In this document: positions 831 to 26,667 of the stretch, in pieces
How positions within the stretch are numbered: the stretch's first letter is position 1
Layout: each line of letters starts with the position of its first letter
IMG/VR virus record: IMGVR_UViG_3300043446_001706
Location: 1 to 42,302 of that record
Length of the DNA stretch: 42,302 nucleotides
DNA from: a virus
Reading direction: 5' to 3' (one strand)
Program-made: the position numbers and the translations under genes
Notes under the pieces: generated by a model
What the model was told of the DNA's origin: nothing
The model's database searches: none
Seen by the model: the letters and a program-made list of their open reading frames with translations, nothing else

Positions 831-3800
831 ATGGCTACGAGTAACAATCCTTTGACTCGTAATGTTCCTGCTCGCGCTGTTATTCGTGGTAATAAGTTAG
901 TTCCTTCGTTTTCTGTTCAGGTTGCTAATAGGCCGAATGCGATTGTTGTTGGAAATAAACTTGTTAATGTTGCGGATGTTAAGCAGCCGAAATATACGTT
1001 TGGTGAGGCGATGGGGCTGGCTAAGTATGGTTATGCTGGTCTTTATGGTCGTTCTAAGACGAAGAAAACCGTTGGTCTTATGGGTGAGAATTGGCAACAG
1101 TTGTATGCGTTGTCAAAGTATAGGCGTGGTCGGAATGTTCCAGAGTTTTCGTTGTTTGATCGTACTCCTAAAGAAGTATTACTTGATATTTCTGCTGCTA
1201 CACAATTAATTCCGGGTAAGCCACAATATAATTCTCTTAATCAGTTGTATACTGATTTTGCTGATAAGTATGGTGCGGATGCTAGTGGGTTTGTTAAACG
1301 GTATGGTGCTATGCCTTCTGTTGAGGGCAAGTATGGCGTATTGTTTGATATTAATAATCGTAAGATTCGTAGTGATGATGTTCGTGGAACATACCAGAAT
1401 AGTCTTGCTAAGACTATGATTCAGGCTGGTAAGGCTTTGTCTGCAGATAATATGCCGGATACTGATAAGGCTATTGGTATTGAGTTGATTGCTATGGGTC
1501 AGGATGCTCGGCTTGCTTCTTCTAGGTCTAAGCCTAATAATGAGAAGATTAAGGCGCTTGAGGATCAGTTTGGTTTGTTGGAGCAGCGTTATTCGCCTCA
1601 GGTTCAGGCTGCTGTGAGTGAGGCTACGGGTATTAGTGGTGATGCGCCGTCGTATTCTAAGACTGCGACTAGTGCTGCATTATCCTTATTGGCTGGTCCT
1701 ATTGGTGCTGTTGTTGGTAATACTACTAGTGGTAATGATTTGACTAATCGTGCTCTTGATTATATGAGTGGTTTGTCTGAGCATGATATTCTTAAGGGTA
1801 AGAAGGTTTGGTGGACTGGTTCTGATAAGCCTGAGGGTGCTTCGTGGGATTCTCGTGGTTTGCTTGGTATGTGGATGAACTGGAATAAGGGGTTGGCTCG
1901 GTTTGGTCTTGGTTTGCCTGCTGGTGTGTTTGCTGCTGGTGGTGAGGCGCGGTTGGCTGGTGAAGAGTCTATTAAGGCTCCTAGGCAGGCTGCGGCTGGT
2001 ATTATTAGTTCTGCGCTTGCTGTTGGTACGCTTGGTGCTGTGGATCAGGATAAGGCTAAGAAGGCTATTGAGAGTGTTATTGGTCGGGAACAACGCGATT
2101 GGGGTGATGGTGTTGATTTTCAGATTGGTGATGCTATGTGGGCTGATTATGCTAAACGGTATTATGATCCTTTTGCGTATCAGGTTGATGAGAATGGTAA
2201 TTTTATTCTTGATGCTGAGAATAAGAGGAAGTTTCAGGGTTTTTGGTCTGGTGTAACTAATCAGGATAATTATGATGCTATGGGTCAGGCTATTGCTTAT
2301 GATCCTTTGGCGTATACGTTGGATGCGTTGGATGTTGCTCCTGCTATTGGTTTTGCGGCTAAGTCTGCTAGTGTTGCTAGTATTGCTGCTCGTGTGCCTC
2401 GTTATGGTGGTAAGTTGGGGATTACTCGTGCGGATATTGTTGCGATTGAGGAGGCTTCTAAGCGGGTTAGTGTGGCTGAGAAGGCAGTTGAGGCTATTCC
2501 TACGATTCAGCGTGAGTCGGCTGAGAGTATTATTCGTAAGTTGGATGAGAATCCTGAGTTGGCTGATGTTCTTGATGAGGATCAGATTCTTGAGGCTGGT
2601 AGGATTCTTGCTCCTGTTGAGGAAGTTAGGGCGGCTAAGTTTGAGTTGGAGACTTTGCAGCGTAAGGTTGATTCTGCTCCTAGTCCTCGTAATTTTCGTA
2701 AGATTCTTCGTGCTGCTATTAATGGTGATGCTGAGAGTATTCGTCGTTTTGATGAGTGGAAGGCTCAGGGTCTTGCGTTTGATGGTATTGAGAATAAGTG
2801 GACGGTTCGTGCTAGTGCGTTGTTTGAGCCGCGTAGTAAGGTGTTAGAGAAGCCTGAGAGTGTTCTTGAGGGGTCTGATACTGCTATTATTCGTTTGCCT
2901 GCTAGTCCTATTGTAAGGGGCTTAAAAGAGGGCTGGTATTGGGTTGGTCGTAAGACTGAGGCTATGGCTGCTAAGGAGTTGGCTAAGCCTGAGACTGGTC
3001 GTGCTAAGGCTGCTGTGCTTAGTAAGTGGATTGATATGCCTCGTTTTGGTTATCGTTGGTCGTATACTCGTGCTATTAAGAATGAGGCTATTTATGATTG
3101 GGGCGATAATGCTAGTGAGTTGTATCGTCAGGGTCGTATTTTGGAGATTGATGGTGCTACGAGTATTAGTGCGCCTATGCGTCAGGCTATTGAGGCTGAG
3201 ATTTTTGGTGGGGATGGTCTTATTGGGCCTGCTAGTGCTCCACAGATTCAGCGTCAAGCGTTGCAGGATAAGTTGCGTTCGCTTGCTCGTGATACGAATG
3301 GTAGGGTTCTTCCTGCGTTGCGTAATGATGAGGCTTTGTATACTAAGAAGTTGAATGATCTTATGGATCGTGAGTTGGCTCAAGTTGATACTAAGTTGGC
3401 TGAGGCTGCGTTTGATGAGGCTTGGGAATCGGGTCGTCAGGATCTTAAGGCTCGTATTGCTGATCCGGCTTATAAGGCTGGTGATGTTGAGTTGGATGCT
3501 GCTATGGATTTGTATCGTAGGCTTATTCGTCAGGATGAGGCTATTCGGCATCGTCTTGTGCATGAGGATATGACTCCGACTACGCTTAATCATTTGAAGC
3601 AATTGTATGCTGAGGCTATGAATGGTTTGCGTTTGACTCCTGATCGTTTGTTTGGGAAGCGTGGTCGTTTGAAGAAGTATACTAAGAGTGTGTTGCGGCC
3701 TAATAATGCGCTTGCTATGTATCTTGGTAGGCTTGTTAATGTTGATGATGCTGATGAGATTATTGCTGCTGCTCAGGCTGGGGATCGTATTGGTACTGTG

Positions 3801-6488
3801 TTTGATGGGTTAGAGCCGAATATTAGGAAGGTTCGTGAGGACCAACTTGTTAATGCGGTTCGTGTTCTTGTTAATGATAATGCTGGTATTTTTCGTGATG
3901 GTTTGGGTGGTGCTGGTGAGATTGGTCGTCCGGTGCTTATTCTTGCTAAGGAGCAGACTGCTGGTGCGGGGTTTGTGCAGTTTCATATTCCACGGTTGCG
4001 GCATACGCTTGATAATGGGCGTGTGATTAATGGTAAGTTAGTGGATGAGGCTGAGGTGTTTACGCTTCCTAAGGAGTTCTTTGTTCGTACTAAAAAGGGT
4101 CCTAAGGTTGAGGATGCTACTACTGGTACTAAGTTGCTTGAGGCTGGTTCGTTGAATGCTATGGCTGATGTGTATCCGAATGCTCGGTTTTATTCTGAGA
4201 AGGTTGCGGAGACTGGTCAGCAGGGCATTCGTATGAATGAGAAGATGGTTAAGACTGAGAGTGTGATTGCTAATAGTGCGTTGCGTGAGCATAGTTTGGC
4301 TCAGGTTGTGCGTAGTCAGTATAATTATTTTGTGTCTCGTGTTGAGCGTGATTTGGCTACGCTTGCTGAGTCTCAGGCTGTGCTTATTCCGGCTAGTCAG
4401 GTTGCTGGTCGTGATCCTGTTGTGTCTGGTTATCGTGTTCTTGATAATGTGCGTACGTTTGATAATCTTGCTGATGCTCGTGATTTTGCTAGGCAGCGTG
4501 GGGTTCTTAACGAGTTTGAGCGTACTGTAGAATTATATGATGCTGGTTTGCTTGAGGATGTTTCGTCTACGCTTGATGTTCCTGCTGGTATGGGTGTTCG
4601 TACTATGCCGGATGGTTCTACTGAGTTTATTGTTCGTGGTGGAGTGGAGGATTGGGCGCCTTATGCTATTAATGAGAGTTTGGAACAACATTCTACGCTT
4701 GCTGCTTATCGTGATGTTATGTATTCTGATCCTGTTGACATTCCCGATCATGGGTTTGTTCTTGCTGTTCCTAATCAGGTTGATCGTCAGTTAAGTGTGC
4801 TTGCTATTGAGGGTGATGATTTTGCTACTCGCTTGTTGTCGAATCCTATGCTTAAGGGTTCTACGAATATCTTTAAGTGGTGGGTGCTGAATTTTAATCC
4901 GAAGTTTATTTCTAATAATGTGCTTGGTGGGTTGACGATGATGATGATTCATAATCCGTCGTCTGCTCCTAAGATTCTTATGCGTACGGCTCAGGCTATT
5001 GCTCGTAAGAATGGTGATACTCGTATGAGTAATATTGTGCGAGAGTCTGATGCTGTTAATCGTCAGTTGCAGTACGAGTTTAATCATAATGCGTATCGTA
5101 AGGATGCGAATTTCCGTGATTCGATGCCTGATTCTATTCGTGATTTGTCGAATAAGCATATGTGGTTTAAGAAGTATATTCAGAATTTTGGTTATACTAC
5201 GATTAGTGCGTTTGAAGAGTTTATTCGTAGGAATGTGGCTGTTGATTTTCTGCGGCAGGATCCTACGTTTAATGCGTTTATGCTTGGTAGTGAGGTTAAG
5301 GATTATATTCGTCGTGGTGTGGATTGGGATGGTAATGTGCGTAAGGGGGATGATGCGATTACGCCGTTTGAGGCGGCTGTGGATCTTCTTCTTGATCGTA
5401 ATTCGCCGTATTTTAATGCGGAGTTGAAGCATCGTATGCGTTATTCTACGAATACTGTGTCTGGTAATTATCATCGTTTTAGTGCTAGTGAGCAATTGTT
5501 GCGTAATTTCTTGATGCCGTTTTATGCTTGGCAGCGTCATTCTGTGACGTATACGTATCGGCTCGCTGTGGATAAGCCTATTACGACGAATGTGTTGTAT
5601 AATGTTGGTCAGTATGGTTATGTGCAGGCTAGTAATAGTGGTGTGCCTGATTATCTTATGATGACTGTTCCTCTTCCTGATACTATTAAGGAGATGTTTG
5701 GTATTGAGGATGAGGATTTTCGTATTGATATGAATGCGTTGTCACCGTTTGCTACTACTGGTGATATGGCTAGTGCTGCTACTCGTTTGTTGACGGGTAC
5801 TGATCTTGGGGCTAGTGTGTTTGAGTTTACTAACCCTTATGTTAATCAGATTATTAAGGATACTCTTGGTGTTGATCCGCGTACTGGTAAGTTTGATTTT
5901 ACTGGTGAGCAGTCTGGTAAGGGTTTCTTTAAGGCGTTGTATGATACTGCTACTGGTATTGGTAAGGGTTCTTATCTTGGTCGTGCTAAGGGTTTGTATG
6001 ATGCTGTTGAGAATACGTATGAGCAGGATGCTCTTAGTAATAAGTATTATGCTATTGATAATGCGGCTGATATTCTTAAGAATTATGAGGCTGGTGAGAC
6101 TTTTAGTGATTGGCGTTTGAGTGTTCCTGAGATGCGTAAGACTGAGGATCTTAGGGGTAATCGTACTGCTGGTATTCTTGCTGGTTTGGGTATTAGTACG
6201 TATAAGGTTAATCTTGATGCGTTGGATGAGAAGCAGCGTGGCGAGGTTGTTGGTGCGTATGTGTTGAATAAGGTGAATGAGTCTCAGTTGGCTGAGCAGT
6301 CACAGTCTCGGCTTAATGGTGTGCAAGAGTGGCAGCGTAGGCGCGATTATGTGTATCAGGTTTGGTTGCCTACTGCTGAGGCTCAGGGCTTGTCAGAAGA
6401 GCAGATTAGGCTTGTGCTTATGAAGATTGAGGATGAGAAGCCTAAGAATAAGAAGTCACAGAAACTATTAGAGATGATGGGAGGATAA
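831..6488 (+). CDS. very large virion protein, putative internal/ejection protein (1885 aa)
   Basis: The start has a clear ribosome binding site (TTTGGAGGTGTGTA before ATG). This is the longest gene in the window. The N-terminal third alternates Gly/Ala-rich hydrophobic stretches (around residues 275-300 and 360-405) with charged segments. The middle is long and helical. Around residues 1365-1580 there is a compact aromatic, basic region (LNFNPKFISNN, LRNFLMPFYAWQRH) resembling LPD38-type domains of large polyvalent proteins carried by phages and mobile elements. I see no obvious lysozyme, transglycosylase or protease active site. In T7-like phages the giant last structural protein (gp16) is stored in the head and ejected into the cell. 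Size and position suggest the same here, but this is an inference. Confidence 0.8.
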   Translation: MATSNNPLTRNVPARAVIRGNKLVPSFSVQVANRPNAIVVGNKLVNVADVKQPKYTFGEAMGLAKYGYAGLYGRSKTKKTVGLMGENWQQLYALSKYRRGRNVPEFSLFDRTPKEVLLDISAATQLIPGKPQYNSLNQLYTDFADKYGADASGFVKRYGAMPSVEGKYGVLFDINNRKIRSDDVRGTYQNSLAKTMIQAGKALSADNMPDTDKAIGIELIAMGQDARLASSRSKPNNEKIKALEDQFGLLEQRYSPQVQAAVSEATGISGDAPSYSKTATSAALSLLAGPIGAVVGNTTSGNDLTNRALDYMSGLSEHDILKGKKVWWTGSDKPEGASWDSRGLLGMWMNWNKGLARFGLGLPAGVFAAGGEARLAGEESIKAPRQAAAGIISSALAVGTLGAVDQDKAKKAIESVIGREQRDWGDGVDFQIGDAMWADYAKRYYDPFAYQVDENGNFILDAENKRKFQGFWSGVTNQDNYDAMGQAIAYDPLAYTLDALDVAPAIGFAAKSASVASIAARVPRYGGKLGITRADIVAIEEASKRVSVAEKAVEAIPTIQRESAESIIRKLDENPELADVLDEDQILEAGRILAPVEEVRAAKFELETLQRKVDSAPSPRNFRKILRAAINGDAESIRRFDEWKAQGLAFDGIENKWTVRASALFEPRSKVLEKPESVLEGSDTAIIRLPASPIVRGLKEGWYWVGRKTEAMAAKELAKPETGRAKAAVLSKWIDMPRFGYRWSYTRAIKNEAIYDWGDNASELYRQGRILEIDGATSISAPMRQAIEAEIFGGDGLIGPASAPQIQRQALQDKLRSLARDTNGRVLPALRNDEALYTKKLNDLMDRELAQVDTKLAEAAFDEAWESGRQDLKARIADPAYKAGDVELDAAMDLYRRLIRQDEAIRHRLVHEDMTPTTLNHLKQLYAEAMNGLRLTPDRLFGKRGRLKKYTKSVLRPNNALAMYLGRLVNVDDADEIIAAAQAGDRIGTVFDGLEPNIRKVREDQLVNAVRVLVNDNAGIFRDGLGGAGEIGRPVLILAKEQTAGAGFVQFHIPRLRHTLDNGRVINGKLVDEAEVFTLPKEFFVRTKKGPKVEDATTGTKLLEAGSLNAMADVYPNARFYSEKVAETGQQGIRMNEKMVKTESVIANSALREHSLAQVVRSQYNYFVSRVERDLATLAESQAVLIPASQVAGRDPVVSGYRVLDNVRTFDNLADARDFARQRGVLNEFERTVELYDAGLLEDVSSTLDVPAGMGVRTMPDGSTEFIVRGGVEDWAPYAINESLEQHSTLAAYRDVMYSDPVDIPDHGFVLAVPNQVDRQLSVLAIEGDDFATRLLSNPMLKGSTNIFKWWVLNFNPKFISNNVLGGLTMMMIHNPSSAPKILMRTAQAIARKNGDTRMSNIVRESDAVNRQLQYEFNHNAYRKDANFRDSMPDSIRDLSNKHMWFKKYIQNFGYTTISAFEEFIRRNVAVDFLRQDPTFNAFMLGSEVKDYIRRGVDWDGNVRKGDDAITPFEAAVDLLLDRNSPYFNAELKHRMRYSTNTVSGNYHRFSASEQLLRNFLMPFYAWQRHSVTYTYRLAVDKPITTNVLYNVGQYGYVQASNSGVPDYLMMTVPLPDTIKEMFGIEDEDFRIDMNALSPFATTGDMASAATRLLTGTDLGASVFEFTNPYVNQIIKDTLGVDPRTGKFDFTGEQSGKGFFKALYDTATGIGKGSYLGRAKGLYDAVENTYEQDALSNKYYAIDNAADILKNYEAGETFSDWRLSVPEMRKTEDLRGNRTAGILAGLGISTYKVNLDALDEKQRGEVVGAYVLNKVNESQLAEQSQSRLNGVQEWQRRRDYVYQVWLPTAEAQGLSEEQIRLVLMKIEDEKPKNKKSQKLLEMMGG

Positions 6489-6880: not shown

Positions 6881-7077
6881 ACTGGCGCGAGGTAGTGACC
6901 CGTGCGGTCTTAACGTTTGTGCAAGCGTTTCTTGCTGTTCTGCTTGTTGATGGTGTTGCTGGTGTGGATCAGGCCGAGGATCTTATGGCTCCTGTTGTGG
7001 CTGGTATTGCTGCTGTGTTGTCGCTTGTGTATAATATTGTGCGTCAGTATCAGGCTAGTAAGGGTTGGTCTGAGTAG
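6877..7077 (+). CDS. putative holin (66 aa, two membrane helices)
   Basis: It starts at GTG overlapping the previous stop. There are two hydrophobic helices, about residues 10-24 and 37-54, joined by an acidic turn (DGVAGVDQAEDL) and followed by a polar, partly basic tail. The TRAVLTFVQAFLAVL segment resembles the r1t-type holins of phages of Gram-positive hosts. Holins collect in the cytoplasmic membrane and open it at a set time so that the endolysin reaches the wall. The endolysin of this phage lies far away on the minus strand (14153-14887). The family call comes from size and topology. Confidence 0.7.
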   Translation: MNWREVVTRAVLTFVQAFLAVLLVDGVAGVDQAEDLMAPVVAGIAAVLSLVYNIVRQYQASKGWSE

Positions 7078-7079
7078 TT

Positions 7080-8399
7080 ATGCCGGGGCCGTTTGAAAAT
7101 AGGATGGATAATCCTGCTATTAGGCGGCGTCGCGCGTTGGCAGAGGCTACGTCTAAGCGGGAATCTGGTAATCGTAGTATTGTTAAGCGTGATCTTGCTG
7201 CTATTAGGAAAAACGCTGGATATAATCCTCGTGTTACTGCGTTTAAGAAGTATGGCGGAGAATTAAATACTAATGATCCTATTACTCCTATTGCAGTTAG
7301 TGCCGTTGCTAATATGCTTCCTGATCCTATTATGCTTAGACAAGCAGCACAAGATCCTATTGGTACTCTTAAGGGCGCTGCCGAAATTGCTAGTCTTGCT
7401 AGTCCGTTGGCTAATGCTTATCGTGGTTATAAACTTGTTACTGGTCAGGGTGCTAGTGTGACTGGTGCGGATATGCAGGATATTGAGCAGGCGGTTGAGG
7501 TTGCTGGTCTTATTCCTCAGGGTAAGGGTGTTAAGGCGGCTGGTAAGTTAGGTAATGCGTTTCTTCGTAGTAAGGTTGGTTTAGAGTTTTATCAGCCTAT
7601 GAAGGAGGCTGGTCAGGCGGGTATTCGTAGTTTGAATATGGGTATAAATCCCGATATTGGTTTACGTAGGGCTGGAGTAGATTTAAATAAAGAGTTAGAT
7701 AAAGCACAAAGTTGGCTGAATGATTGGGAATGGTCGCCCGGTTCTGCAACAGAGTTTGATACAGTTACAGCGGCAGTTGATAAGATTAATTGGGGACCAT
7801 ATCAGCGCCCTGTTAGCAAAAGAGTTGCTGGACCAACAGATATTACTAAAATTAATCTTGAAGATATGTCGTCTACAGAGCGCAGTTATTTTTCTGAGGA
7901 AGAACTACAAGTATTTGATAATTTAGATTATTTAAAGTCTATTGATAGGCAAACGGATGCGGCTTTTAGGGGTAGTGCTGAGCCTGTTAGAGTTAGAGTT
8001 CAAAAATACCCGACGTGGGAACAGTTTAGGGATAGGCTAACTGGTGAGCGTTTAGGCGGAATTCCTACAAATAAAAAAAGAGAACTTTATGATGAAACTT
8101 TAAAACTTATTGATGATACTGGTGGTTATTGGAGTGTTAAAAAGTTAGAAATTGGTAAGAAGCCTGTTAGTGTTGGTGGAATGGATATGGCGCATTTGCA
8201 GCATTTTGCAACATTAGGAGGAAGAGGTGTTACTTCTAAGGGCACTATTAATGTTGAAGCACAACAAGCAGCGTTAAATAGGGCGCAGCAAACACAGGGA
8301 GTTGGAGGACATTCTGGTTTTAAAGATTGGTGGGAAGCCAACCAAAAGTCTGCTTCTAATCGTGCTATTATTGAAGCGTTATACTTTGATAGATTTTAA
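7080..8399 (+). CDS. unknown late protein with an atypical C-terminal half (439 aa)
   Basis: The last gene of the late arm, ending just before the convergent terminator. The N-terminal part (to about residue 190) has the Ala/Gly-rich, GGT/CGT/GCT-using character of neighbouring virion genes and hydrophobic stretches near residues 70-85 and 90-110. From about base 7660 codon choice changes to AAA, TTA, ACA, AGA and GAA. The C-terminal 80 residues contain a His-bearing segment (MDMAHLQH, then N-containing helices) that only faintly recalls HNH-like toxin nucleases. A virion-delivered effector or a cargo protein with an exchangeable C-terminus is possible. I do not recognise the family. Confidence 0.6.
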   Translation: MPGPFENRMDNPAIRRRRALAEATSKRESGNRSIVKRDLAAIRKNAGYNPRVTAFKKYGGELNTNDPITPIAVSAVANMLPDPIMLRQAAQDPIGTLKGAAEIASLASPLANAYRGYKLVTGQGASVTGADMQDIEQAVEVAGLIPQGKGVKAAGKLGNAFLRSKVGLEFYQPMKEAGQAGIRSLNMGINPDIGLRRAGVDLNKELDKAQSWLNDWEWSPGSATEFDTVTAAVDKINWGPYQRPVSKRVAGPTDITKINLEDMSSTERSYFSEEELQVFDNLDYLKSIDRQTDAAFRGSAEPVRVRVQKYPTWEQFRDRLTGERLGGIPTNKKRELYDETLKLIDDTGGYWSVKKLEIGKKPVSVGGMDMAHLQHFATLGGRGVTSKGTINVEAQQAALNRAQQTQGVGGHSGFKDWWEANQKSASNRAIIEALYFDRF

Positions 8400-8403
8400 T
8401 ATT

Positions 8404-8438
8404 AGAGGACCGGGCGCTTGCCCGGTCCTCTTTTTTTT
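8404..8438. terminator. bidirectional Rho-independent terminator between convergent arms
   Basis: A perfect 12-bp GC-rich stem (8404-8415 with 8420-8431), loop GCTT, followed on the plus strand by eight T residues. On the minus strand the last bases of the ribonucleotide reductase gene, including its stop, lie in the T/A tract, so the hairpin can also stop leftward transcription. It separates the late arm (ending 8399) from the metabolic arm (ending 8437). Confidence 0.9.
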
Positions 8439-10353
8439 ATCCCTTAATATCCACAACCTCACAAGCATCACTCGTACAAGCAAACGTCTGAGAGGACTCA
8501 GTATTATCCTCCAACTCGTACTCAGCAAGTCTCTCCCACTCAATCACACTAGGAGACTCCTTCACAAGAGCATCATACTCATCCTTACTAATAGCCTCAT
8601 ACGGAGCCTGACGATACGTATGATCACTCTTAGGTAAGAAACTAATACCACTCACCTGATCAAAATGATCATACACCCAAGCACCAACACTCATCCACTC
8701 ATGCTCAGCAACACTCACAGTAATACTAGGCTTATGCTCACACCAATACTCCTGATAAGCCAACCATAATTCTAGATGATCAAGCGCCGTCAACTCGCCA
8801 CGATACGTCGTAGGAGACTTCTGAGGAAACGAGAATACCATCATATTCTCAGGATTCATAACATCAGCCTCACAAGGAACACCACTATCAACAAGGAATT
8901 GAGTCAATGGGTCCTTGACATCTCCACGTACACGACGAATATAATACTCAGAATAACGAGGATGAATGCCACTAGCGGAATCCACCAACTGAGACACAGT
9001 ACCACTAGGCTTAACACAAGTAATAGCAGTAGACTGCGGAATACCAATTGCCTTAGCATACTTCTCATTTGTAGTTACTGCAACCTTCCTAAGATCAGGC
9101 AAGAGATTACCCAACTGGTATACACCCTTACCAACCATAATCTTATTATCAAAGATACCTGTTAGCGACACTCCAAGCAGACGCTCTTCTTCCGTGTTCT
9201 GCTTCCACACTTTACGCAAATACTTAAAGTCTGTGAGAGTGGCTTGCATCGTACCAAGAATCGTAGCGAGCCGAACCTTACGCTCAAGTGAAGTTGGATC
9301 ATCATCAGCACGAACCACAACCTCAGTAAGATTACAAAACTGGTGCGGACGTAGAATAATCTCAGAGCATGGATTAGTGCCAAACGCATGATCGTACTCG
9401 CGCCTCCCATTCTTAGCGGCTTGCTTACGAGCAGCCTCACGATTAAAGATACCACGCTCACCACTCTTACTAGCATAGAGACTCATCCACTCTTCCATAA
9501 AAGCATCCATACCGGGAGTCTCAGAGTAGGCTACACTATTATTAGCGAGTGCGCGTTGAGGGTTATCAGTCCACCACTCACCACTCTTAGCATTACGCAT
9601 ACGACCATCTGAAAGATTACTAAGAGAAATAAGTGCGGAGCGGCGAACACCACCAACAACTACTACCTCAGCAATCTTACAAACAATATCATGACACTCA
9701 ATAGCATACAACTTGCGACCAGCAGCATTCTGAAATACGCTAATAACAAACTTAAATAAGTCCTCTAGAGGCTCTGGACCACTAGCCCTACCACCGAACG
9801 TCTTGAGGCGACTACCAGCAGGACGAACTTGACTCATATCCCATGAGGGGATCTGACCAGCATAGAGCATAGCGATCAACTCGCGGAGTGCCTTAGCCCA
9901 ACCAGCCTTAGAATCAGCGACCTTAATGATCGTATCCGACTGCTCAAAATGCTCATTCACAATCGGCAATTGGCTAACCTCATCACGCTCAACAGAGAAA
10001 CCAACACCGACACCATTCATAAGAATGTAAAGAATCTCATCAAAACAACGCGGATGATTAACTGGAGTATAAGAACAATTATAACCAGCAACATTCTCCC
10101 TAGCAAGAGCAGGCCCAGCAGTCATAAGTGCTCGCATACTAGGCATAACTTCTAGTCCAATAATAGCATCCAACAATTCGGCCTTAAGTGTAGGCTCCAT
10201 CTTATACTTATGCTTCTCACGAAGAGACTGATCAATGTACTCAATATACCGATTCACAGTCTCAGGCCAATATTCTCGCCGCTTCTCATCATCCAACCAA
10301 CGAGCATAACGCGAAGTTGCAATAAATGTTTGATAATCAGTAGGTAGACTCAT
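8437..10353 (-). CDS. nrdJ: class II (adenosylcobalamin-dependent) ribonucleotide reductase (638 aa)
   Basis: The enzyme makes deoxyribonucleotides for phage DNA synthesis, using adenosylcobalamin as radical source and a reductant from the host. All five expected catalytic positions can be placed: Cys in NCS (about residue 93), Asn, Cys and Glu in NPCSEI (about 327, 329, 331), and Cys in FCNLTE (about 340). PSGTVSQLVDSASG follows as the phosphate-binding region. A CTSDAC pair close to the C-terminus fits the swinging reducing cysteines. There is no partner small subunit, as expected for class II. The ATG at 10353 is chosen because AAAGGAGAAGT lies just upstream; an upstream ATG at 10368 and the longer open frame to 10374 have no such site. 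tRNA-Leu lies immediately upstream. Confidence 0.93.
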   Translation of the reverse strand: MSLPTDYQTFIATSRYARWLDDEKRREYWPETVNRYIEYIDQSLREKHKYKMEPTLKAELLDAIIGLEVMPSMRALMTAGPALARENVAGYNCSYTPVNHPRCFDEILYILMNGVGVGFSVERDEVSQLPIVNEHFEQSDTIIKVADSKAGWAKALRELIAMLYAGQIPSWDMSQVRPAGSRLKTFGGRASGPEPLEDLFKFVISVFQNAAGRKLYAIECHDIVCKIAEVVVVGGVRRSALISLSNLSDGRMRNAKSGEWWTDNPQRALANNSVAYSETPGMDAFMEEWMSLYASKSGERGIFNREAARKQAAKNGRREYDHAFGTNPCSEIILRPHQFCNLTEVVVRADDDPTSLERKVRLATILGTMQATLTDFKYLRKVWKQNTEEERLLGVSLTGIFDNKIMVGKGVYQLGNLLPDLRKVAVTTNEKYAKAIGIPQSTAITCVKPSGTVSQLVDSASGIHPRYSEYYIRRVRGDVKDPLTQFLVDSGVPCEADVMNPENMMVFSFPQKSPTTYRGELTALDHLELWLAYQEYWCEHKPSITVSVAEHEWMSVGAWVYDHFDQVSGISFLPKSDHTYRQAPYEAISKDEYDALVKESPSVIEWERLAEYELEDNTESSQTFACTSDACEVVDIKG

Positions 10354-10394
10354 ACTTCTCCTTTCCATGTACACTTTTTATTAGAAAATAAACA

Positions 10395-10476
10395 TAGGGC
10401 CGAAGGGGGTCGAACCCTTATGCCCGAAGGCTACGGATTTTAAGTCCGCTGCGTATACCAATTCCGCCACGGCCCC
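10395..10476 (-). tRNA. tRNA-Leu (anticodon UAA)
   Basis: Cloverleaf with a GGGGCCG/CGGCCCT acceptor, discriminator A, and a class II long variable arm with CCTTCGGG at its core. The T arm is GGGTTCGACCCC, and the anticodon loop CTTAAAA gives UAA. CCA is not encoded. It decodes UUA and possibly UUG. It sits between the metallophosphatase and ribonucleotide reductase genes in the same transcription direction. Confidence 0.93.
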
Positions 10477-10481
10477 ATAAC

Positions 10482-11249
10482 CTACTTAGAACGAGCATTA
10501 ATCTTAATGCCACGCGCTCCATAACTAACCATATCAGGCTTACCATTCGTGATAAACCAATACCCATTACACCAACTAGGATACGTAGTCGTACCCTGCA
10601 AATACTCCGTTTGTGGAATATTAAAGAAACCACCCAACTCGCCAACAACGAACGAACCACTAGCATCCCAACCCATAGCACAATGATGCGTATGAGCAGT
10701 AAGGACATGACACTTCTTAACCTCAGCAATAGCAAGAGGATTATTCAACGGCGATCTAGAATAAGAATCAGGATGAGCAATGAAGAAACGCTCACGATTG
10801 CTAGTGATGTAGCAATGATCAAGATTGCTAAACCTAAGTTTACAACTATGTCGGGGAACATCCTTAAACACCTCCGTCATAGACTCAACAAACGATTCCC
10901 GATACTCAGCCGCCTTTGTATACCGATAATCATGATTACCACGCAAAAAGACAATGTTACTGAAATTCTGACAAAGAACCTCCATAAGGCTCTTAGCCTC
11001 ACTAATCTCCTTCTCAATACCCGCACTCTTCTGCTTCGGATAATATTGACTCAACGAGTCACCATTCAGAAAATCACCAGCAATGAGAAGATTCTTATAA
11101 TCACGAGACTCGTCAAGAAACTCGTTCACAAGATTAGCATCATACAATGGTACATGCCAATCCGCAGTCACAGCCCAATCACCCTTCAACTCAAACGGAC
11201 GATCAAGCCCAAACTCAAACCTACTTTTATCCTTGGTATCAACCCTCAT
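10482..11249 (-). CDS. calcineurin-like metallophosphatase (255 aa)
   Basis: The metallophosphatase signature motifs occur in order: DxH (ADWHVP), GD (AGDFLNGD), GNHD (LRGNHDYR) and a late paired histidine motif (TAHTHH). These bind two metal ions and the protein should be a soluble phosphomonoesterase or phosphodiesterase. Phage homologues lie in DNA-metabolism modules, and their substrates are mostly unknown. The start at 11249 has GGAGAG seven bases upstream; an in-frame ATG at 11264 would lengthen it by five residues. It overlaps the end of the sigma region 4 gene. Confidence 0.85.
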   Translation of the reverse strand: MRVDTKDKSRFEFGLDRPFELKGDWAVTADWHVPLYDANLVNEFLDESRDYKNLLIAGDFLNGDSLSQYYPKQKSAGIEKEISEAKSLMEVLCQNFSNIVFLRGNHDYRYTKAAEYRESFVESMTEVFKDVPRHSCKLRFSNLDHCYITSNRERFFIAHPDSYSRSPLNNPLAIAEVKKCHVLTAHTHHCAMGWDASGSFVVGELGGFFNIPQTEYLQGTTTYPSWCNGYWFITNGKPDMVSYGARGIKINARSK

Positions 11250-11535
11250 CAACCATCTCTCCATTCATAATATTAGTCAAGGTATCCAACCCATCATTCA
11301 AACGATAATTAATCATACGAGTCGTAACACCCTCATTGTGTGCTAGGTCCTGAATAGGCATACCAGAAACAAACACATTAATCAGCGTATAATATAATAC
11401 TGAATTATCCTTCTGCAATTCCTTCAAACCATACATAAGATCCATATAATAGTGTGAGAACGTAGAATCAGGATGCCGTTGTAGACTATAATAATTCCTC
11501 AGCAGATTCTCCACTATCTCCTTCTCGTACTCCAT
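11239..11535 (-). CDS. sigma factor region 4-like HTH protein (98 aa)
   Basis: The C-terminal half (MPIQDLAHNEGVTTRMINYR) reads as a helix-turn-helix of the sigma region 4 type that would contact a -35 element. The preceding helix has leucines spaced as in sigma-70 family proteins. There is no region 2. That region is encoded by the gene just upstream (11486-11821), whose end overlaps this start by 50 bases in another frame. The ATG at 11535 has its own site, GAGGAG eight bases upstream, so separate translation is plausible. The two products may act as a two-piece sigma factor directing host RNA polymerase to phage promoters; that is inferred. Confidence 0.65.
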   Translation of the reverse strand: MEYEKEIVENLLRNYYSLQRHPDSTFSHYYMDLMYGLKELQKDNSVLYYTLINVFVSGMPIQDLAHNEGVTTRMINYRLNDGLDTLTNIMNGEMVDEG

Positions 11536-11821
11536 TTAGAATCTCCTCATAGTCAACAGATTGATTATGCCTTAACCGTTTGGTATAACGCACCCAATCC
11601 TTCATCCGATTATAAATAATCCTACTAACTAGTTTAACGTCCTCATTCGTTCCTTTTTGTCTAAGCATATAGACTTGATTGACTGTATCAGGAGAACATA
11701 ACCATAATGAGATCATGCCCTCCTGATACAAATCATCATATTCTGCTGCTTTACGGAATGTATAAGCAGCCGCAGCGATGGCTCCCTTATATTCCCCGAT
11801 AAACTCTTCGGGGGTCCACAT
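11486..11821 (-). CDS. sigma factor region 2-like protein (111 aa)
   Basis: The YDDLYQEGMISLWL segment and the following RIIYNRMKDWVRYTKR helix match the layout of sigma-70 region 2, the part that binds the RNA polymerase clamp and reads the -10 element. The protein ends after an acidic tail (EGDSGESAEELL) and lacks region 4, which is in the overlapping downstream gene. Its ATG overlaps the SSB stop (TAATG), suggesting coupled translation. It could be the front half of a frameshifted single sigma gene, but the downstream gene has its own ribosome binding site. With no phage RNA polymerase in the window, a sigma-like switch is a reasonable way to turn on late genes. Confidence 0.7.
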   Translation of the reverse strand: MWTPEEFIGEYKGAIAAAAYTFRKAAEYDDLYQEGMISLWLCSPDTVNQVYMLRQKGTNEDVKLVSRIIYNRMKDWVRYTKRLRHNQSVDYEEILNGVREGDSGESAEELL

Positions 11822-12171
11822 TAGAACGGGAAGTCGTCGCCAGTCGCATCAGCAGCCACGGCCTGCTTCGTCGGTGCAGCACTAGGAGTAGCATCACCAG
11901 CGACACGCACAATCGTCGTAGCCGACAAATTATGATACGTGACCTGCTCACCCTCCTTATTCTGACCAACACTCTGCGAATACTTACCATCACAAACAAG
12001 GAAATCACCCTTGTTCACCGGGATACCAGCCTTCTCAGGCCAAATCGTAACACTAAAGTTCTTATTAGAACCGATGGCACGGATAACAACATCCCGCACA
12101 TCCTTACCACCAGCCTGACGGGTACGAGGATCAAACTGCACGATACCCGCAATAGTCACATACTCACTCAT
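11821..12171 (-). CDS. ssb: single-stranded DNA-binding protein (116 aa)
   Basis: An OB-fold-like N-terminal region (EYVTIAGIVQFDPRTR, then VTIWPEKAG and GDFLVCDGKYSQ) is followed by a short Ala/Thr-rich linker and a terminal ATGDDFPF tail. That acidic tip ending in Pro-Phe is the hallmark by which SSB proteins recruit replication and repair partners. The start at 12171 has AAGGAG nine bases upstream. The longer open frame upstream overlaps the resolvase gene and has no site. The protein should coat single strands made by the Toprim-helicase and split polymerase of this arm. Confidence 0.88.
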   Translation of the reverse strand: MSEYVTIAGIVQFDPRTRQAGGKDVRDVVIRAIGSNKNFSVTIWPEKAGIPVNKGDFLVCDGKYSQSVGQNKEGEQVTYHNLSATTIVRVAGDATPSAAPTKQAVAADATGDDFPF

Positions 12172-14887: not shown

Positions 14888-15120
14888 ACATAACTCCTAA
14901 CTGTATTAATTGCTCGTTGTTCCTCAATATAAATCAACCGCTCAATATACCATTGAGCCTTACGAAGATCCTCAATACCATTCTTATAACGATACCGAGA
15001 CACATACTTTAGTACATTACCCTGATGATAATCAAGTCCCAAACCCTCAATAGCAGTAATAACTTCCATATCACCTTGAGTATAATGCTTCGGACTATTG
15101 ACAGGATCATCAAGCGACAT
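14884..15120 (-). CDS. DUF3310 protein (78 aa)
   Basis: Starts with VNSPKHYTQGDMEVI and continues with GNVLKYVSRYRYKNGIEDLRKAQWYIERL, the full signature of the phage DUF3310 family. These small proteins lie next to replication genes in many phages. A nucleotide-kinase-like role has been suggested by annotation but is not established. The start overlaps the HNH gene end, and the stop overlaps the endolysin start by four bases, so it is part of a tightly packed operon. Confidence 0.88.
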   Translation of the reverse strand: MSLDDPVNSPKHYTQGDMEVITAIEGLGLDYHQGNVLKYVSRYRYKNGIEDLRKAQWYIERLIYIEEQRAINTVRSYV

Positions 15121-15484
15121 TATTTAGTTCCTTATGGATCTGCCTATGACAAGGACGACACACCGGAACACACTTATCAATCTCATTCTGCAAGGACGTA
15201 GCAGACCTATGATAAATAGCAGTAGAAATATTAATCTCCTTCTCCTTAGGATCAAGATGGTGAAGATCAATAAGCGACGGGTGAAGCAACTTACCACAAC
15301 AATGACAAGGCTTATACTTTGCCGCCGCTACAATGCCACGATTAACTGTAGCCTGTACGTCCGTCTTAGCACGACGACAATCACGACACAAACTCTCCAC
15401 GCCATACCTACCCTTCTTATCCTTATAATACTGACTCGTATGCTTAACTTCCTTACAATGAGTACACTTCTTATAATTATCCAT
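15110..15484 (-). CDS. HNH endonuclease (124 aa)
   Basis: Three Cys-pair zinc sites (CTHCKEVK, CRDCRR, CHCCGK) lead into the HNH core: LIDLHHLDP, then a variable helix, CVPVCRPCHRQIH. The ATG at 15484 is preceded by AAGGAG and overlaps the end of the polymerase C-terminal gene. Such free-standing HNH enzymes are usually homing endonucleases that cut an unoccupied allele and spread themselves with flanking DNA. Its place directly downstream of a broken polymerase gene makes it the obvious candidate for causing, or once having caused, the split. Confidence 0.87.
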   Translation of the reverse strand: MDNYKKCTHCKEVKHTSQYYKDKKGRYGVESLCRDCRRAKTDVQATVNRGIVAAAKYKPCHCCGKLLHPSLIDLHHLDPKEKEINISTAIYHRSATSLQNEIDKCVPVCRPCHRQIHKELNNVA

Positions 15485-16217
15485 TATACGGCTCCTTATC
15501 TGCCCAGTTAGTATAACTAATTTCACAATCTGTTTCTATTCTAACGAACTCTTCTACAGTATTATTCCCCATAAGTGTTGGAATCTGATTAACTAGTGTA
15601 ACGATTTCGTTACGATCAGCATCTAAGATCAACTCGTCATGCACGATATTTACAATGTGTGTAGCATAATTTGCATATAGATACTTGTCTACTCGTACTA
15701 CAGCATCCCGCATTAGATCCGCTGCTGACCCCTGAATAAGAGCATTCAACGCCTTATGGGACTCTAATACGTGAAGCCTACGACCATACAAACTCTGGAT
15801 ATAACCACGCATATCCAAGGTTTCTGCGATACTTTGGTTTAATAGTTTGATTCCCGGCCTTGTATCATGATACGCAGCAAGCAATCGTTTAGCCTCCTTA
15901 TAGTTTACTCCTAATTGTCGCATGATTGTAGGAGTGCCACCACCATAGATGATACTAAAGTTTAGTGTCTTACCCACTTGCCGCTGCTCGTCTGTGATGC
16001 TGTCAGTAGCGTATAGTCCTTTGGCGGTAACAGCATGAGGATCTGATCCATTGTTAATCTCGTTCGCCAACGAATGGTCGTTGATTGCCGCTGCCAAGTA
16101 GTATGCGAGCAGCCTGACTTCGATGGCTTTGTAGTCGAAAAATAGGAATGCATCAAGTTTGGGTAGAAACGCTCGTTTGACATCCTTTTGACTCCTTGGA
16201 ATATTCTGTACGTTCAT
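15477..16217 (-). CDS. polA: family A DNA polymerase, C-terminal piece (palm and fingers, 246 aa)
   Basis: Begins with MNVQNIPRS, which in intact family A polymerases lies inside the polymerase domain just after the TGR-L/M-SS motif. It carries motif A (FFDYKAIEVRLLA, Asp 28), motif B or O-helix (RQVGKTLNFSIIYGG, Lys 83, Tyr 91) and motif C (IVHDELILD, residues 193-195), so all catalytic residues for nucleotide addition are here. AAGGAG eight bases before the ATG lies in the end of the glycosyltransferase gene, whose stop overlaps the start as ATGA. Activity would require assembly with the separately made N-terminal piece (16978-17919). Confidence 0.93.
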   Translation of the reverse strand: MNVQNIPRSQKDVKRAFLPKLDAFLFFDYKAIEVRLLAYYLAAAINDHSLANEINNGSDPHAVTAKGLYATDSITDEQRQVGKTLNFSIIYGGGTPTIMRQLGVNYKEAKRLLAAYHDTRPGIKLLNQSIAETLDMRGYIQSLYGRRLHVLESHKALNALIQGSAADLMRDAVVRVDKYLYANYATHIVNIVHDELILDADRNEIVTLVNQIPTLMGNNTVEEFVRIETDCEISYTNWADKEPYNG

Positions 16218-16981
16218 GCAAACCGCTCCTTAATCTGCTTTTCATACATACTAGAGATAATTGCTACTCGTTCTTGAATCTCAGCATTATGAACTCTCTG
16301 AGCCGTATTAGGACTAATATACTGCTTATAGAGCAACTTATCAATATGCTTTGCCTTTGTATTCAGTATAGTCCTAATCATAAACTCGTAATCATCAGCG
16401 ACTCGTAGACTAGGATCATGCCCATTCAGCATACGGTATACGCTTGATCGCCAAGCGCGAACATGATTCGGAGCACTAACAATATGACTCATTGTAATCT
16501 CATTAAGTTCTGGTGCTCGCATAACCATCACTTCATGCTCCTTATCATAATATTCTGACCCATACCCAAACGCCCAACCATCAGGATAACGACACGACTC
16601 CCCTTGCTCATTAATCTCACACCAATTAGAATACACGAATCCAACGTCAATGTCAAGGAACGCATCATGAATCTCATCAAGAGCATCAGAAGTAAGTTCA
16701 TCATCATGATCCAATTCAACAATAATAGTACCATTACTAATCATACTAGCCCACCGCTTTACCTCGCCAATACGACCAGATGGAACATGACTACGAAACA
16801 TACTAATCTTATACCGCTCATCAGAACAAAATCCGTATACTTGATTCCAAGCATTATTAGTATGCGAATCGTCCCAAACAATCCATTCCCAATTCGTATA
16901 TGTCTGTTGTTTGAGACTATTCCAAGTACGCGCCAACACAATGGGATCAGTCTCATAAATAGGAGTAATAACACTAATCAT
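16214..16981 (-). CDS. GT-A glycosyltransferase family 2 protein inserted in the polymerase gene (255 aa)
   Basis: Starts ISVITPIYETDPIVLARTW with the WEWIVWDD strand, the classic nucleotide-sugar-binding start of GT2 enzymes. A DxD-type metal motif is in ELDHDDEL (91-94) and an acidic catalytic motif in VADDYEF (about 195-200). It has no membrane segment and appears complete. GGGAG nine bases upstream lies in the end of the polymerase N-terminal piece. Both gene borders overlap their neighbours as ATGA. Possible targets are modified DNA bases, virion proteins or host surface glycans; none can be chosen from sequence. Its place inside a replication gene is the odd part. Confidence 0.88.
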   Translation of the reverse strand: MISVITPIYETDPIVLARTWNSLKQQTYTNWEWIVWDDSHTNNAWNQVYGFCSDERYKISMFRSHVPSGRIGEVKRWASMISNGTIIVELDHDDELTSDALDEIHDAFLDIDVGFVYSNWCEINEQGESCRYPDGWAFGYGSEYYDKEHEVMVMRAPELNEITMSHIVSAPNHVRAWRSSVYRMLNGHDPSLRVADDYEFMIRTILNTKAKHIDKLLYKQYISPNTAQRVHNAEIQERVAIISSMYEKQIKERFA

Positions 16982-17919
16982 GCTTCAGCACTCCCACTAC
17001 TCATACGACCCGTTCTAGTACCATGCTGACGAAAATTAGGATGCAACACACCATGCTTAGACTCATCATACATAGCATCAAAATACGTAGTCTTAATCTT
17101 ATTTGCTTCTCGCAAATCTACGATGAGCGTAGCCAACTCATCATCCACGCTGGCAAGTGTCGCCTTATCCGTCTTTGAGACTGACACTCCGCGCTCTTCC
17201 AAGGCTGCGAGGACTTGTTGCGGCGACTGAGGGTTGAAGTCTGGCCCGGATAACTCTGCAATTTTCGCTTTCGTCCAATAAATCTTATCACCATACTCCC
17301 TTCGTTTTTGTGTAATATACTCACGATCTACGTGCATACCTTGTGCCTCAATACGAAGCAAGGCTAGCGTCATCTCCTTTTCCATCTCATAAAGAGGATA
17401 TGACTCTTTAGGCAAACGATTAATTAGATACTCATACAAGCGAAGTGTAAACTCTGCATCCTTCTTAGCGTAAGGCGCTAGAATATCATAAGGAATAGGC
17501 TCATACCCATCTTCCTTCTTCAACTTAGCCTTACGCCGATATACCTTTAGTACCTCATCCTCATCCGTAGTCTCATTAAGATATACACGAGCAAGATGTT
17601 TTAGACTAGTAGACTGATGCTCATCAATAAGGTGTGCCATCGCTTGCGTATCCTCAAACTTGTCATAGAATACCCGACCATTGATACCAAGACGAATCAA
17701 TTTCTGCATGTCAAACTTGGCATTGTGCATGATGATCTTATCAGCGTTGGCTAGTGCCTTAAAGACTTCTGCAATAGCATCATCCCATTCACCAATACTC
17801 ATAATACGACGATCATAGACAATGCTATACGCATCAGTCGCCATGCTAATCATGAAGGCTTCATCATACCAGCCAACGCCGGTAGTTTCAGTATCAATCG
17901 CCACTAGATCCAAGACCAT
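16978..17919 (-). CDS. polA: family A DNA polymerase, N-terminal piece (3'-5' exonuclease and thumb, 313 aa)
   Basis: The proofreading domain is intact by motif: Exo I in AIDTETTG (Asp 9, Glu 11), Exo II in MHNAKFD (Asp 70), Exo III in PYAKKDAEFT (Tyr 150, Asp 154). A thumb region follows with PQSPQQVLAAL and LHPNFRQHGT. The protein stops right after TGRMSSGSAEA, in the middle of the polymerase domain and just before the NVQNIP motif, which is encoded 760 bases away after the glycosyltransferase. The start overlaps the dUTPase end and has AGAGGGG upstream. It could work as a separate exonuclease subunit or reassemble with the C-terminal piece. Confidence 0.93.
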   Translation of the reverse strand: MVLDLVAIDTETTGVGWYDEAFMISMATDAYSIVYDRRIMSIGEWDDAIAEVFKALANADKIIMHNAKFDMQKLIRLGINGRVFYDKFEDTQAMAHLIDEHQSTSLKHLARVYLNETTDEDEVLKVYRRKAKLKKEDGYEPIPYDILAPYAKKDAEFTLRLYEYLINRLPKESYPLYEMEKEMTLALLRIEAQGMHVDREYITQKRREYGDKIYWTKAKIAELSGPDFNPQSPQQVLAALEERGVSVSKTDKATLASVDDELATLIVDLREANKIKTTYFDAMYDESKHGVLHPNFRQHGTRTGRMSSGSAEA

Positions 17920-21586: not shown

Positions 21587-21610
21587 TATTCTGTTAATTG
21601 TTTGTTAGGA

Positions 21611-21681
21611 CTGAGGGACTAGGATTCGAACCTAGATAATGGGCACCAAAAACCCATGTCCTACCGTTAGACGATCCCTCA
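21611..21681 (-). tRNA. tRNA-Gln (anticodon UUG)
   Basis: Acceptor TGAGGGA/TCCCTCA with discriminator G, D arm TCGTCTAACGGTAGGA typical of tRNA-Gln, anticodon loop TTTTGGT (UUG), and T arm AGGTTCGAATCCT. CCA is not encoded. It lies one base from the adjoining tRNA-Leu gene, so both come from one precursor. Confidence 0.93.
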
Positions 21682-21682
21682 A

Positions 21683-21764
21683 TAGGGGTAGAGGGAGTCG
21701 AACCCCCATGCCTTGCGGCGCTAGATTTTGAGTCTAGTGTGTCTACCAATTCCACCATACCCCC
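21683..21764 (-). tRNA. tRNA-Leu (anticodon CAA)
   Basis: Acceptor GGGGGTA/TACCCCT with discriminator A, long variable arm (CGCCGCAAGGC), T arm GGGGTTCGACTCC, and anticodon loop CTCAAAA giving CAA. It reads UUG, the leucine codon that the late structural genes use very heavily. CCA is not encoded. Confidence 0.93.
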
Positions 21765-21769
21765 ATTTG

Positions 21770-23395: not shown

Positions 23396-23663
23396 AGGTA
23401 TAATCTCCTTCATCATCATTAGGATAATCGTCAGGATAATCATAATCCATCGTCCAATCATGCGACGATGCGTAATCCTCAGGCTCCAACTCAGTATGCC
23501 AACCCGGATACTGGTACTCTGGCGGATCACTTAGCACGAACGTATCATCCAATAGACTAGCATCATCCCGTAGGTCATCTACAACCTTAGGGAACCAAGA
23601 ATGTGGGCCAACCATACCATTATCCTTCCACTCCATATACTTAGCAATATCAGACACTCGCAT
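23388..23663 (-). CDS. acidic, Tyr/Asp-rich protein (91 aa)
   Basis: The start at 23663 has GGAGG six bases upstream and overlaps the end of the ArdC-like gene. The N-terminus (MRVSDIAKYMEWKDNG) looks folded, while the last 30 residues are mainly Asp, Glu, Tyr and Pro (DYDYPDDYPNDDEGDYTYD). Such tails are typical of DNA-mimic or nucleic-acid-competing proteins. Its coupling to an antirestriction gene suggests a defence-evasion role, which is an inference. Confidence 0.7.
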   Translation of the reverse strand: MRVSDIAKYMEWKDNGMVGPHSWFPKVVDDLRDDASLLDDTFVLSDPPEYQYPGWHTELEPEDYASSHDWTMDYDYPDDYPNDDEGDYTYD

Positions 23664-24540
23664 AAACATCCTCCATCATGTAGTCTACAGCCTTCTCAGC
23701 CATGTTAGCAGCACTCACGAGTAGACTAGGCTCATCCTTACAACGCTGCGCCCAACCCTTCAGGTATGCAGCGGACTGCTCCATATCAGCAGGAATATCC
23801 AACGCACCACACATCATAGCAGCACCAAACTCTGCAACAAGTTCCTCCTTTGCATAAGAATCAGTACCAAAACCAGCCTTCTCCAGACGATTCAGCCGGG
23901 TATCAGCACCGGTAGCATGAACAATCTCATGAGCCAACGTCTGAGCATACCAAGACGAACGATGAAACATATCACGATCAGGCATACGAATCTGATCCTC
24001 ACTAGGAATATAACAAGCCTTGTTAGAACCATGTTCCAGAGACAGGTTAGCATCGCACCAATCATACATGACGCTGATACCAGCATAATCCTCATCACCA
24101 TCAGGCTGAACCGGAGCCTCAACCTCTACATCATACTCAGGCAGACCATCAATCTGCGAAGCATGAAAAACCTTATAGAATCGCATATTCCACCAAGTAT
24201 AAGTCTCAACCTCACCTTTATCATTCTCCTTCTCACTCACAGCAGGAGCATTATAGACAACGATAGTAGACTTACTACCCTTACGAACCTTAGCACCAAG
24301 ATCCTTCACATTACCAAACGTAAACCAACGAGGATCATTACTACCAAAACTCTCTTGCATCCAGCCGAGGTAGATACGGTTAAAACCGTTGTAAAGACGA
24401 CTACTAAAACCATTCTGCGGCTGGTAAGCCTTGCTTACAACCCACGGCTGCTGCCAAATAGCAACACCCTGCTCCATCTGCTCAATCAGACCAGCAGTCA
24501 CTTGCTGGTAGAGTTCCTTTTTCTTATCAGCATCCATCAT
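23650..24540 (-). CDS. ArdC-like antirestriction protein (296 aa)
   Basis: Two domains are visible. The N-terminal ArdC/DUF1738-type domain (QQVTAGLIEQMEQGVAIWQQPW, NGFNRIYLGW, VRKGSKSTIVVY) is known in the family to bind single-stranded DNA. The C-terminal part is a zinc-metallopeptidase-like domain with HExxH in LAHEIVHATG (about 204-208) and EELVAEFGAAM as the third ligand region. ArdC proteins protect incoming DNA against restriction. GGAAAGG lies just upstream of ATG 24540. The transcript leader contains the hairpin at 24581-24614. Confidence 0.85.
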   Translation of the reverse strand: MMDADKKKELYQQVTAGLIEQMEQGVAIWQQPWVVSKAYQPQNGFSSRLYNGFNRIYLGWMQESFGSNDPRWFTFGNVKDLGAKVRKGSKSTIVVYNAPAVSEKENDKGEVETYTWWNMRFYKVFHASQIDGLPEYDVEVEAPVQPDGDEDYAGISVMYDWCDANLSLEHGSNKACYIPSEDQIRMPDRDMFHRSSWYAQTLAHEIVHATGADTRLNRLEKAGFGTDSYAKEELVAEFGAAMMCGALDIPADMEQSAAYLKGWAQRCKDEPSLLVSAANMAEKAVDYMMEDVYASV

Positions 24541-24580
24541 ATTTTCCTTTCCGGTTTCCGGCAATCTCTATTCTCTCTAA

Positions 24581-26191: not shown

Positions 26192-26208
26192 CTTCTTTCC
26201 TTCCTAGA

Positions 26209-26241
26209 GGTTCTTATCTTCACTACGTTCAGATAAGAACC
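26209..26241 (-). promoter_or_regulatory. leader hairpin with GAAC...AGTGA loop upstream of the first leftward gene
   Basis: A perfect 11-bp stem (26209-26219 with 26231-26241) closes an 11-base loop that reads GAACGTAGTGA on the minus strand. It ends 17 bases before the ATG of the zinc-finger gene, right above its ribosome binding site. The loop matches that of the ArdC leader hairpin (GAACTTTAGTGA), while the stems differ. Confidence 0.55.
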
Positions 26242-26278
26242 GTCTGGAAGGGAATAGAGGGAATCGGCGACAACTCCC

Positions 26279-26667
26279 TAATCTCTACTCTATAGAGAGT
26301 AGAGATTAAACTATCCTTAATAGTCTTATATAATCTAATGCCAAAGGCACTTAGATTATTAATAAGACATAAGGATAAACCTAACTAATCAAAGATTAGT
26401 TAAACTTATATCCATAAATGGATATACCTGTACAATCTAGAGATTCTTTAATAATCTCTAGATTATGGCTCTAATAAACAGATATCTAGTAGTAATGTAT
26501 TACTACTATATCTGTATTCTTTAGCCAGATAAAAGATACTTATGGAATAAGTATGTGTAATACTACTAATCCTTAGTAGTATTAGTTCTTATAGTATATA
26601 TATATATACTATATAGGGGGCTGACATAATCAATGGATACTATAGGTATTATATATATAATACCTAT
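26279..26667. repeat. array of ten successive, non-identical hairpins
   Basis: Ten inverted repeats follow each other: 26279-26308 (11-bp stem), 26312-26377 (stacked stems of 8, 7 and 8 bp plus a GC tip), 26382-26402 (9 bp), 26407-26426 (8 bp), 26434-26464 (12 bp), 26478-26515 (7 plus 9 bp with a two-base bulge), 26536-26554 (8 bp), 26558-26584 (12 bp), 26590-26613 (12 bp, no loop) and 26642-26667 (12 bp). Stem sequences differ from unit to unit, loops are mostly 2-8 bases, and no reading frame runs through. The region is very AT-rich. It lies between the leftward and rightward arms and could be a replication origin, a packaging signal, a structured RNA or a transcription barrier. Confidence 0.85.

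Follow-up and report, generated by a model that had tools for sequence, protein, structure and literature searches.

Sigma region 2 and region 4 are carried on separate proteins that act together in the SigO-RsoA system of Bacillus subtilis (PMC8103513, PMC10028694). In bacteriophage T4, a "split sigma" serves the late genes, in which the phage region 2 protein gp55 and the β-flap binder gp33 act on the host RNA polymerase; gp33 has no sequence similarity to sigma and does not read DNA, and the genes for gp33 and gp55 lie far apart (PMC2988020). A review of T4 late transcription, to which no natural fusion was known, asks why the split sigma has never been found fused in nature (PMC2988020). 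Here we describe a pair of overlapping genes in a viral genome (IMG/VR record IMGVR_UViG_3300043446_001706, positions 1 to 42,302; this whole stretch of 42,302 nt is referred to as the window) that together appear to supply both essential halves of a sigma factor, the first encoding an ECF-like region 2 protein (gene 1) and the second a region 4-type helix-turn-helix (HTH) protein (gene 2). The nearest relatives of the window's capsid protein belong to Arthrobacter, Microbacterium and Cellulosimicrobium phages, and on this kinship the host is most likely an actinobacterium.

SigO-RsoA is the nearest described system in architecture. It is a bacterial stress regulator whereas the window pair is viral, and the region 4 gene comes first in its operon, as the name yvrI-yvrHa indicates, whereas the region 2 gene comes first in the window, the order of a normal sigma factor. 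The T4 system differs in that its flap-binding partner lacks sigma similarity, whereas the gene 2 family matches sigma region 4 models; moreover, the window genes overlap and natural fusions exist among their relatives. Phage SPO1 likewise has two adjacent overlapping genes, gp33 and gp34, for late transcription. SPO1 gp34 alone gives a region 2 match together with a weak region 4 match, and gp33 belongs to a family of its own, Phage_Gene33. Profile comparisons of the window families with the SPO1 proteins gave 0.2-3%, except for a weak match of gene 2 to the region 4 of gp34 (42%), and the SPO1 proteins showed no similarity to gene 1. Among open-licence papers, we found none describing a sigma factor split between regions 2 and 4 in the phages studied here. 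The new element is thus the clean division of a phage sigma factor into two genes, homologous to sigma region 2 and region 4, respectively, which occur naturally fused in some relatives.

Gene 1 (11486-11821, minus strand; KRLRHNQSVDYEEI) encodes a protein of 111 aa that ends just past region 2.4, and gene 2 (11239-11535, minus strand) a protein of 98 aa. The two genes overlap by 50 nt (11486-11535, minus strand), gene 2 being in the +1 frame relative to gene 1, which agrees with the positions and the 50-base overlap in different frames reported in the initial annotation. The ribosome-binding site GAGGAG of gene 2 (11543-11548, minus strand), which that annotation had also pointed out, lies inside gene 1, 7 nt rather than eight 5' of the gene 2 ATG. 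Its bases double as codons for the conserved Glu-Glu of YEEI in gene 1, and it is kept in eight relatives (L002, L004, L005, L007, L008, L011, L013 and L014). A TAA stands immediately 5' of this ATG in the frame of gene 2, so the start is proper to gene 2 and the frame is not open beyond it. The pair is further linked to both of its neighbours. An SSB-like gene (11821-12171, minus strand) stops on the first base of gene 1; its product had no match in the family search and is a putative SSB by its C-terminal DDFPF motif. On the other side, a gene for an SbcD/MRE11-like metallophosphoesterase (10482-11264, minus strand; PHROG metallo-phosphoesterase, E=1.8e-7) begins within gene 2 and overlaps its end. 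With overlaps at both ends of the pair, the four genes form a chain. A ribonucleotide reductase gene (phrog_367, 8437-10374, minus strand, E=3.6e-192) lies beyond the metallophosphoesterase gene.

The identity of gene 1 was assessed by family profiles and by predicted structure. Gene 1 passes the Pfam Sigma70_r2 cut-off (24.6 versus 24 bits, E=2.2e-5), and the same model was matched by all 21 nonredundant gene 1 homologues, with a best value of 4.2e-8. AAEYDDLYQEG is near-invariant in the family alignment and DLYQEG is invariant; we take the latter to correspond to DLxQEG of region 2.2, the core-binding motif of sigma. Searching PDB sequences with the region 2 family profile gave one weak sigma match only (8x6g_H, E=0.0047). 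The AlphaFold model of gene 1, with a pLDDT of ~95 over residues 1-80, found its best solved structures in region 2 of sigma70, sigma28, sigmaE and sigmaS (Z 7-8.3), and each of the 50 structural matches listed was a chain of a sigma factor, aligned across region 2 (72-74 residues, Z up to 8.3). By profile (21/21) and by fold, gene 1 therefore has the region 2 of group IV (ECF-like) Sigma-70 factors.

For gene 2, the window protein alone gave no significant Pfam match, and a PDB sequence search with the region 4 family profile gave no sigma match. At the family level, 11 of 21 members matched Sigma70_ECF (best 7e-6) and 14 of 21 matched the NCBIfam SigF model (best 3.2e-5). The AlphaFold model (pLDDT 91.6) had as its best structural matches region 4 of sigma28 (Z 9.7), region 4 of SigL (Z 9.4) and the antiterminator Q of phage 21 (Z 9.2). 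Taken by themselves, the Foldseek E-values (0.3-1) are weak, and Z-scores of this size can arise by coincidence between helical proteins, so that Z alone is not decisive for small helical proteins such as these. The evidence from fold counts mainly because sigma factors make up nearly all of the top matches, and the argument for sigma is carried by the sequence evidence together with this near-uniformity of the structural matches. The structure predictions called for in the initial annotation thus returned models that match solved structures of sigma regions 2 and 4, and its description of a region 2 gene followed by a region 4-like HTH gene is borne out by family profiles as well as folds. 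The division between the genes lies within the linker that joins region 2 to region 4; no region 3 was seen, as is the case in ECF sigma factors.

The match to phage 21 Q raises a different reading, in which the two products form no joint sigma. Gene 2 would then encode either an antiterminator of the phage 21 Q type or a late activator resembling RinA/ArpU, working with host sigma-A at the single late promoter, and gene 1 would encode an independent region 2-type factor or an anti-host protein. Q has a fold like that of gene 2 along most of the gene 2 protein (rmsd 2.4 over 84 residues), a match about level with that to region 4; there is also a weak PHROG Q match (E=0.027), and PF06530 was weakly matched by 5 of 21 gene 2 members (best 0.0062). 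However, the sigma models score better and in more members than these, and Sigma70_r4_2 was matched by all 11 region 4 proteins examined from homologous Streptomyces phages, with a best value of 7.9e-9. Together with the 11 Sigma70_ECF matches in the window's own family and the fold, these results place gene 2 with the region 4 of group IV factors. To our knowledge, Q has neither a region 2 partner nor a fusion to one, and the fusion of gene 2 homologues to region 2 in two lineages, described below, would be unexpected for an antiterminator. Only one strong late element was found per genome, which suits this reading; a single late element per phage is also the situation at lambdoid pR'. Taken together, we consider an antiterminator role for gene 2 quite unlikely.

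We also examined how the split is distributed among relatives. Scanning IMG/VR with gene 1 returned 30 contigs, and scanning with gene 2 returned 28 of the same contigs, with the pair side by side. The genes overlap with a +1 offset in 27 of the 30 relatives; in two others (L020 and L023) they share a frame, with a stop and 12 nt between them, and in the last (L025) they form one continuous frame of 181 aa. Regions 2 and 4 are accordingly on separate, co-encoded proteins in 29 of the 30, and this gene arrangement was found repeatedly in metagenomes of independent origin. When a tree was built from the concatenated proteins, two well supported groups enclosed L025, which branches deep among the split relatives, indicating that its fusion is derived. 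The five phages with related capsids that were searched (from Arthrobacter, Microbacterium and Cellulosimicrobium, and two uncultivated) had no detectable pair, and a scan of the genome_contigs set found no relative and hence no prophage or host link from that source.

The +1 offset in 27 of 30 relatives is what programmed +1 frameshifting in the overlap might leave, with a full sigma and a truncated form as its products. This reading is highly improbable in view of the variation around the junction: the overlap ranges from 8 to 53 nt when conserved start codons are used, no common slippery sequence was seen in the overlaps, and L020 and L023 have an in-frame stop and a gap in place of an overlap. 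In addition, a gene 2 start codon is present in all relatives, with a good ribosome-binding site in many, and homologous Streptomyces phages have overlaps of 4 nt, 1 nt or none. A one-base change could in principle join the overlapping frames, as would be expected of a sequencing or assembly error or of a decaying, broken sigma gene. The missing or extra base that the initial annotation had named as a refuting outcome is excluded by the identical 50-nt overlap in six close relatives from other datasets (L002-L007). Decay is likewise refuted by the relatives, as the split is spread over the whole tree and, outside the overlap, dN was 0.06-0.18 against a dS of 0.39-1.27 in both genes, measured against four close relatives; both frames are under purifying selection there. 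The likelihood left to error or decay is practically negligible. The relatives with a continuous frame have different linkers and represent fusions that arose in evolution rather than corrected readings of a split gene.

More distant homologues were found in cultivated phages. Neither blastn of the locus nor tblastn of gene 2 matched any of the phage records searched, and the corresponding translated search with gene 1 gave one match of 28% identity (E 0.3), in Streptomyces phage Puginator, which became the key lead. Searches with Puginator gp47 and gp48 reached 164 and 172 Streptomyces phage records, so homologues of both halves occur in at least 160 Streptomyces phages (Arquatrovirinae). Profile comparison of the window family with the Streptomyces family gave a probability of 95% for region 2 (E=2.7e-8) and 63% for region 4 (E=6.8e-5), against 0.2% for controls in which the halves were crossed. 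Conversely, when the Streptomyces region 2 profile was run against all six-frame ORFs of six genomes, gene 1 was the best of them (E=7.4e-6).

The arrangement in these phages (cluster BD, with R4, phiHau3, Puginator and Salutena) resembles that of the window, with a homologous pair in the same order and the same MRE11 and ribonucleotide reductase neighbours. In the twelve split records examined, the halves sit next to each other in the order of the window, just after a gene for an MRE11-like nuclease that carries several annotation names; ribonucleotide reductase usually follows the pair. In contrast, the nuclease gene lies on the other side of the pair in the window, and the short or absent overlaps of the Streptomyces phages differ from the 50 nt in the window. 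Most of the Streptomyces records examined keep the halves separate, whereas the pair is a single gene of 291 aa in at least three phages, Caliburn, Hydra and SunsetPointe. Fusion in the same order has therefore occurred in two lineages, that of L025 and that of these three, which is the best evidence that the halves may work as one factor; internal starts could still be used in the translation of a fused ORF. Existing labels are piecemeal: RefSeq calls the second gene "sigma factor" and the first mostly "hypothetical", "sigma factor" or "DNA binding protein" appears elsewhere, and of the records examined, those of Salutena and Vanseggelen are the only ones in which both halves carry a sigma label, either "RNA polymerase sigma factor" or "sigma factor". 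The description of such two-part factors as rare in the initial annotation thus needs qualifying, as the pair is common in these actinophages, albeit mostly unrecognized in annotation; its reading of a bipartite sigma, on the other hand, is well supported by profiles, folds, the conserved split and natural fusions.

Domain identity, fold, the conserved split, co-occurrence and natural fusions together lead to the reading that we consider probable, namely a two-part ECF-like factor (sigma2-linker-sigma4) that borrows the host core RNA polymerase and most likely serves a late promoter at ~26.9 kb. According to this model, a single operon in the middle of the genome would yield both proteins, their overlapping genes probably being translated in a coupled manner. 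The region 2 protein would dock on the host core polymerase at the β' coiled-coil, opening the -10 region, while the region 4 protein would sit on the β flap and read the -35 element, both halves being needed together on the core to direct transcription. The most likely target would be the single rightward late promoter at ~26.9 kb, which would drive the structural genes. Joint action on the host polymerase, late timing and recognition of the late element are all inferred here.

The late genes run rightward from ~26.9 kb, and a candidate promoter element, TTTCCGATTTGTG...CGTTAGTATATATGAGGG, lies upstream of the late operon (26889-26929, plus strand). Alignment of the regions upstream of the first late gene in eight phages gave a family consensus of about TGTCACTTTTTT-N11-CGTTATTAT, followed by a GGTAGAG-like stretch. 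With models that left out the genome itself and its close kin, the element was the top match in each of seven whole genomes, and in seven phages this element, T-rich and found by aligning upstream regions, outscored 299 or all 300 of the shuffled versions made from its own region. Its -10 is near-standard and its -35 unusual, a combination that a promoter read by another sigma would be expected to show, and we infer that the element is the target of the pair. This one conserved promoter-like element before the late operon is the basis on which control of the late genes by the pair is suggested. The pair itself sits in the replication operon, so it could be a sigma factor for early or middle (replication) genes, or one that redirects host transcription, rather than a late factor. 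We regard this assignment as unlikely, given that the sole strongly conserved promoter-like element found precedes the rightward late operon, leftward promoters having been examined less.

The initial annotation had linked late transcription to the host polymerase on the ground that the phage has no RNA polymerase of its own. None was detected in the major ORFs scanned; two very large proteins encoded on the plus strand, of 1885 aa (831-6488) and 1093 aa (36599-39880), had no Pfam match, and the former had no PHROG match either. The search with the phage polymerase model PF00940 matched nothing anywhere, controls included, and carries no weight.

If the reading of a two-part sigma holds, relatives that carry one phage sigma either split or fused, cultivable Streptomyces phages among them, make the question of the split testable by swapping states, and allow one to ask why a phage keeps its sigma in two pieces. 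It would also give a function to ~160 proteins, most of them called hypothetical, and a group of uncultivated actinophages would gain a candidate late promoter. A fuller version would hold that both halves are true sigma domains, that the split is ancestral and stably kept in the window's clade, that fusion has arisen more than once, that the split itself is selected and that a new promoter class exists alongside; this combination is tentative and, taken whole, somewhat doubtful. If true, the split might, for example, make late transcription depend on both halves accumulating on the host polymerase, and the new promoter class would have a TGTCAC-like -35 and a TATTAT-like -10.

Several further features were observed in the window. 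A second, weaker copy of the late element lies at 7019-7058 (plus strand), just before the gene at 7080-8399; the product of this gene has no homologue in the sister contigs. The divergent noncoding region at 26200-26670 contains about a dozen consecutive near-perfect inverted repeats with arms of 9-27 nt, and one relative (L072) has a similar layout of hairpins with different sequences, which looks like covariation. Three tRNA genes were found on the minus strand, Leu-TAA (10394-10477), between the ribonucleotide reductase and metallophosphoesterase genes, Gln-TTG (21608-21682) and Leu-CAA (21682-21765). The minus-strand gene at 23650-24564 strongly matches a PHROG annotated as anti-restriction protein (E=7.9e-71). 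DNA polymerase I is also divided between two genes (15477-17919, minus strand), with the break at the TGRMSS / NVQNIPR junction; an HNH-like ORF (15110-15526) adjoins this locus. A gene for a family 2 glycosyltransferase lies between the polymerase halves in the window and in three relatives, while in other relatives the halves are near each other without a detectable copy of the glycosyltransferase.
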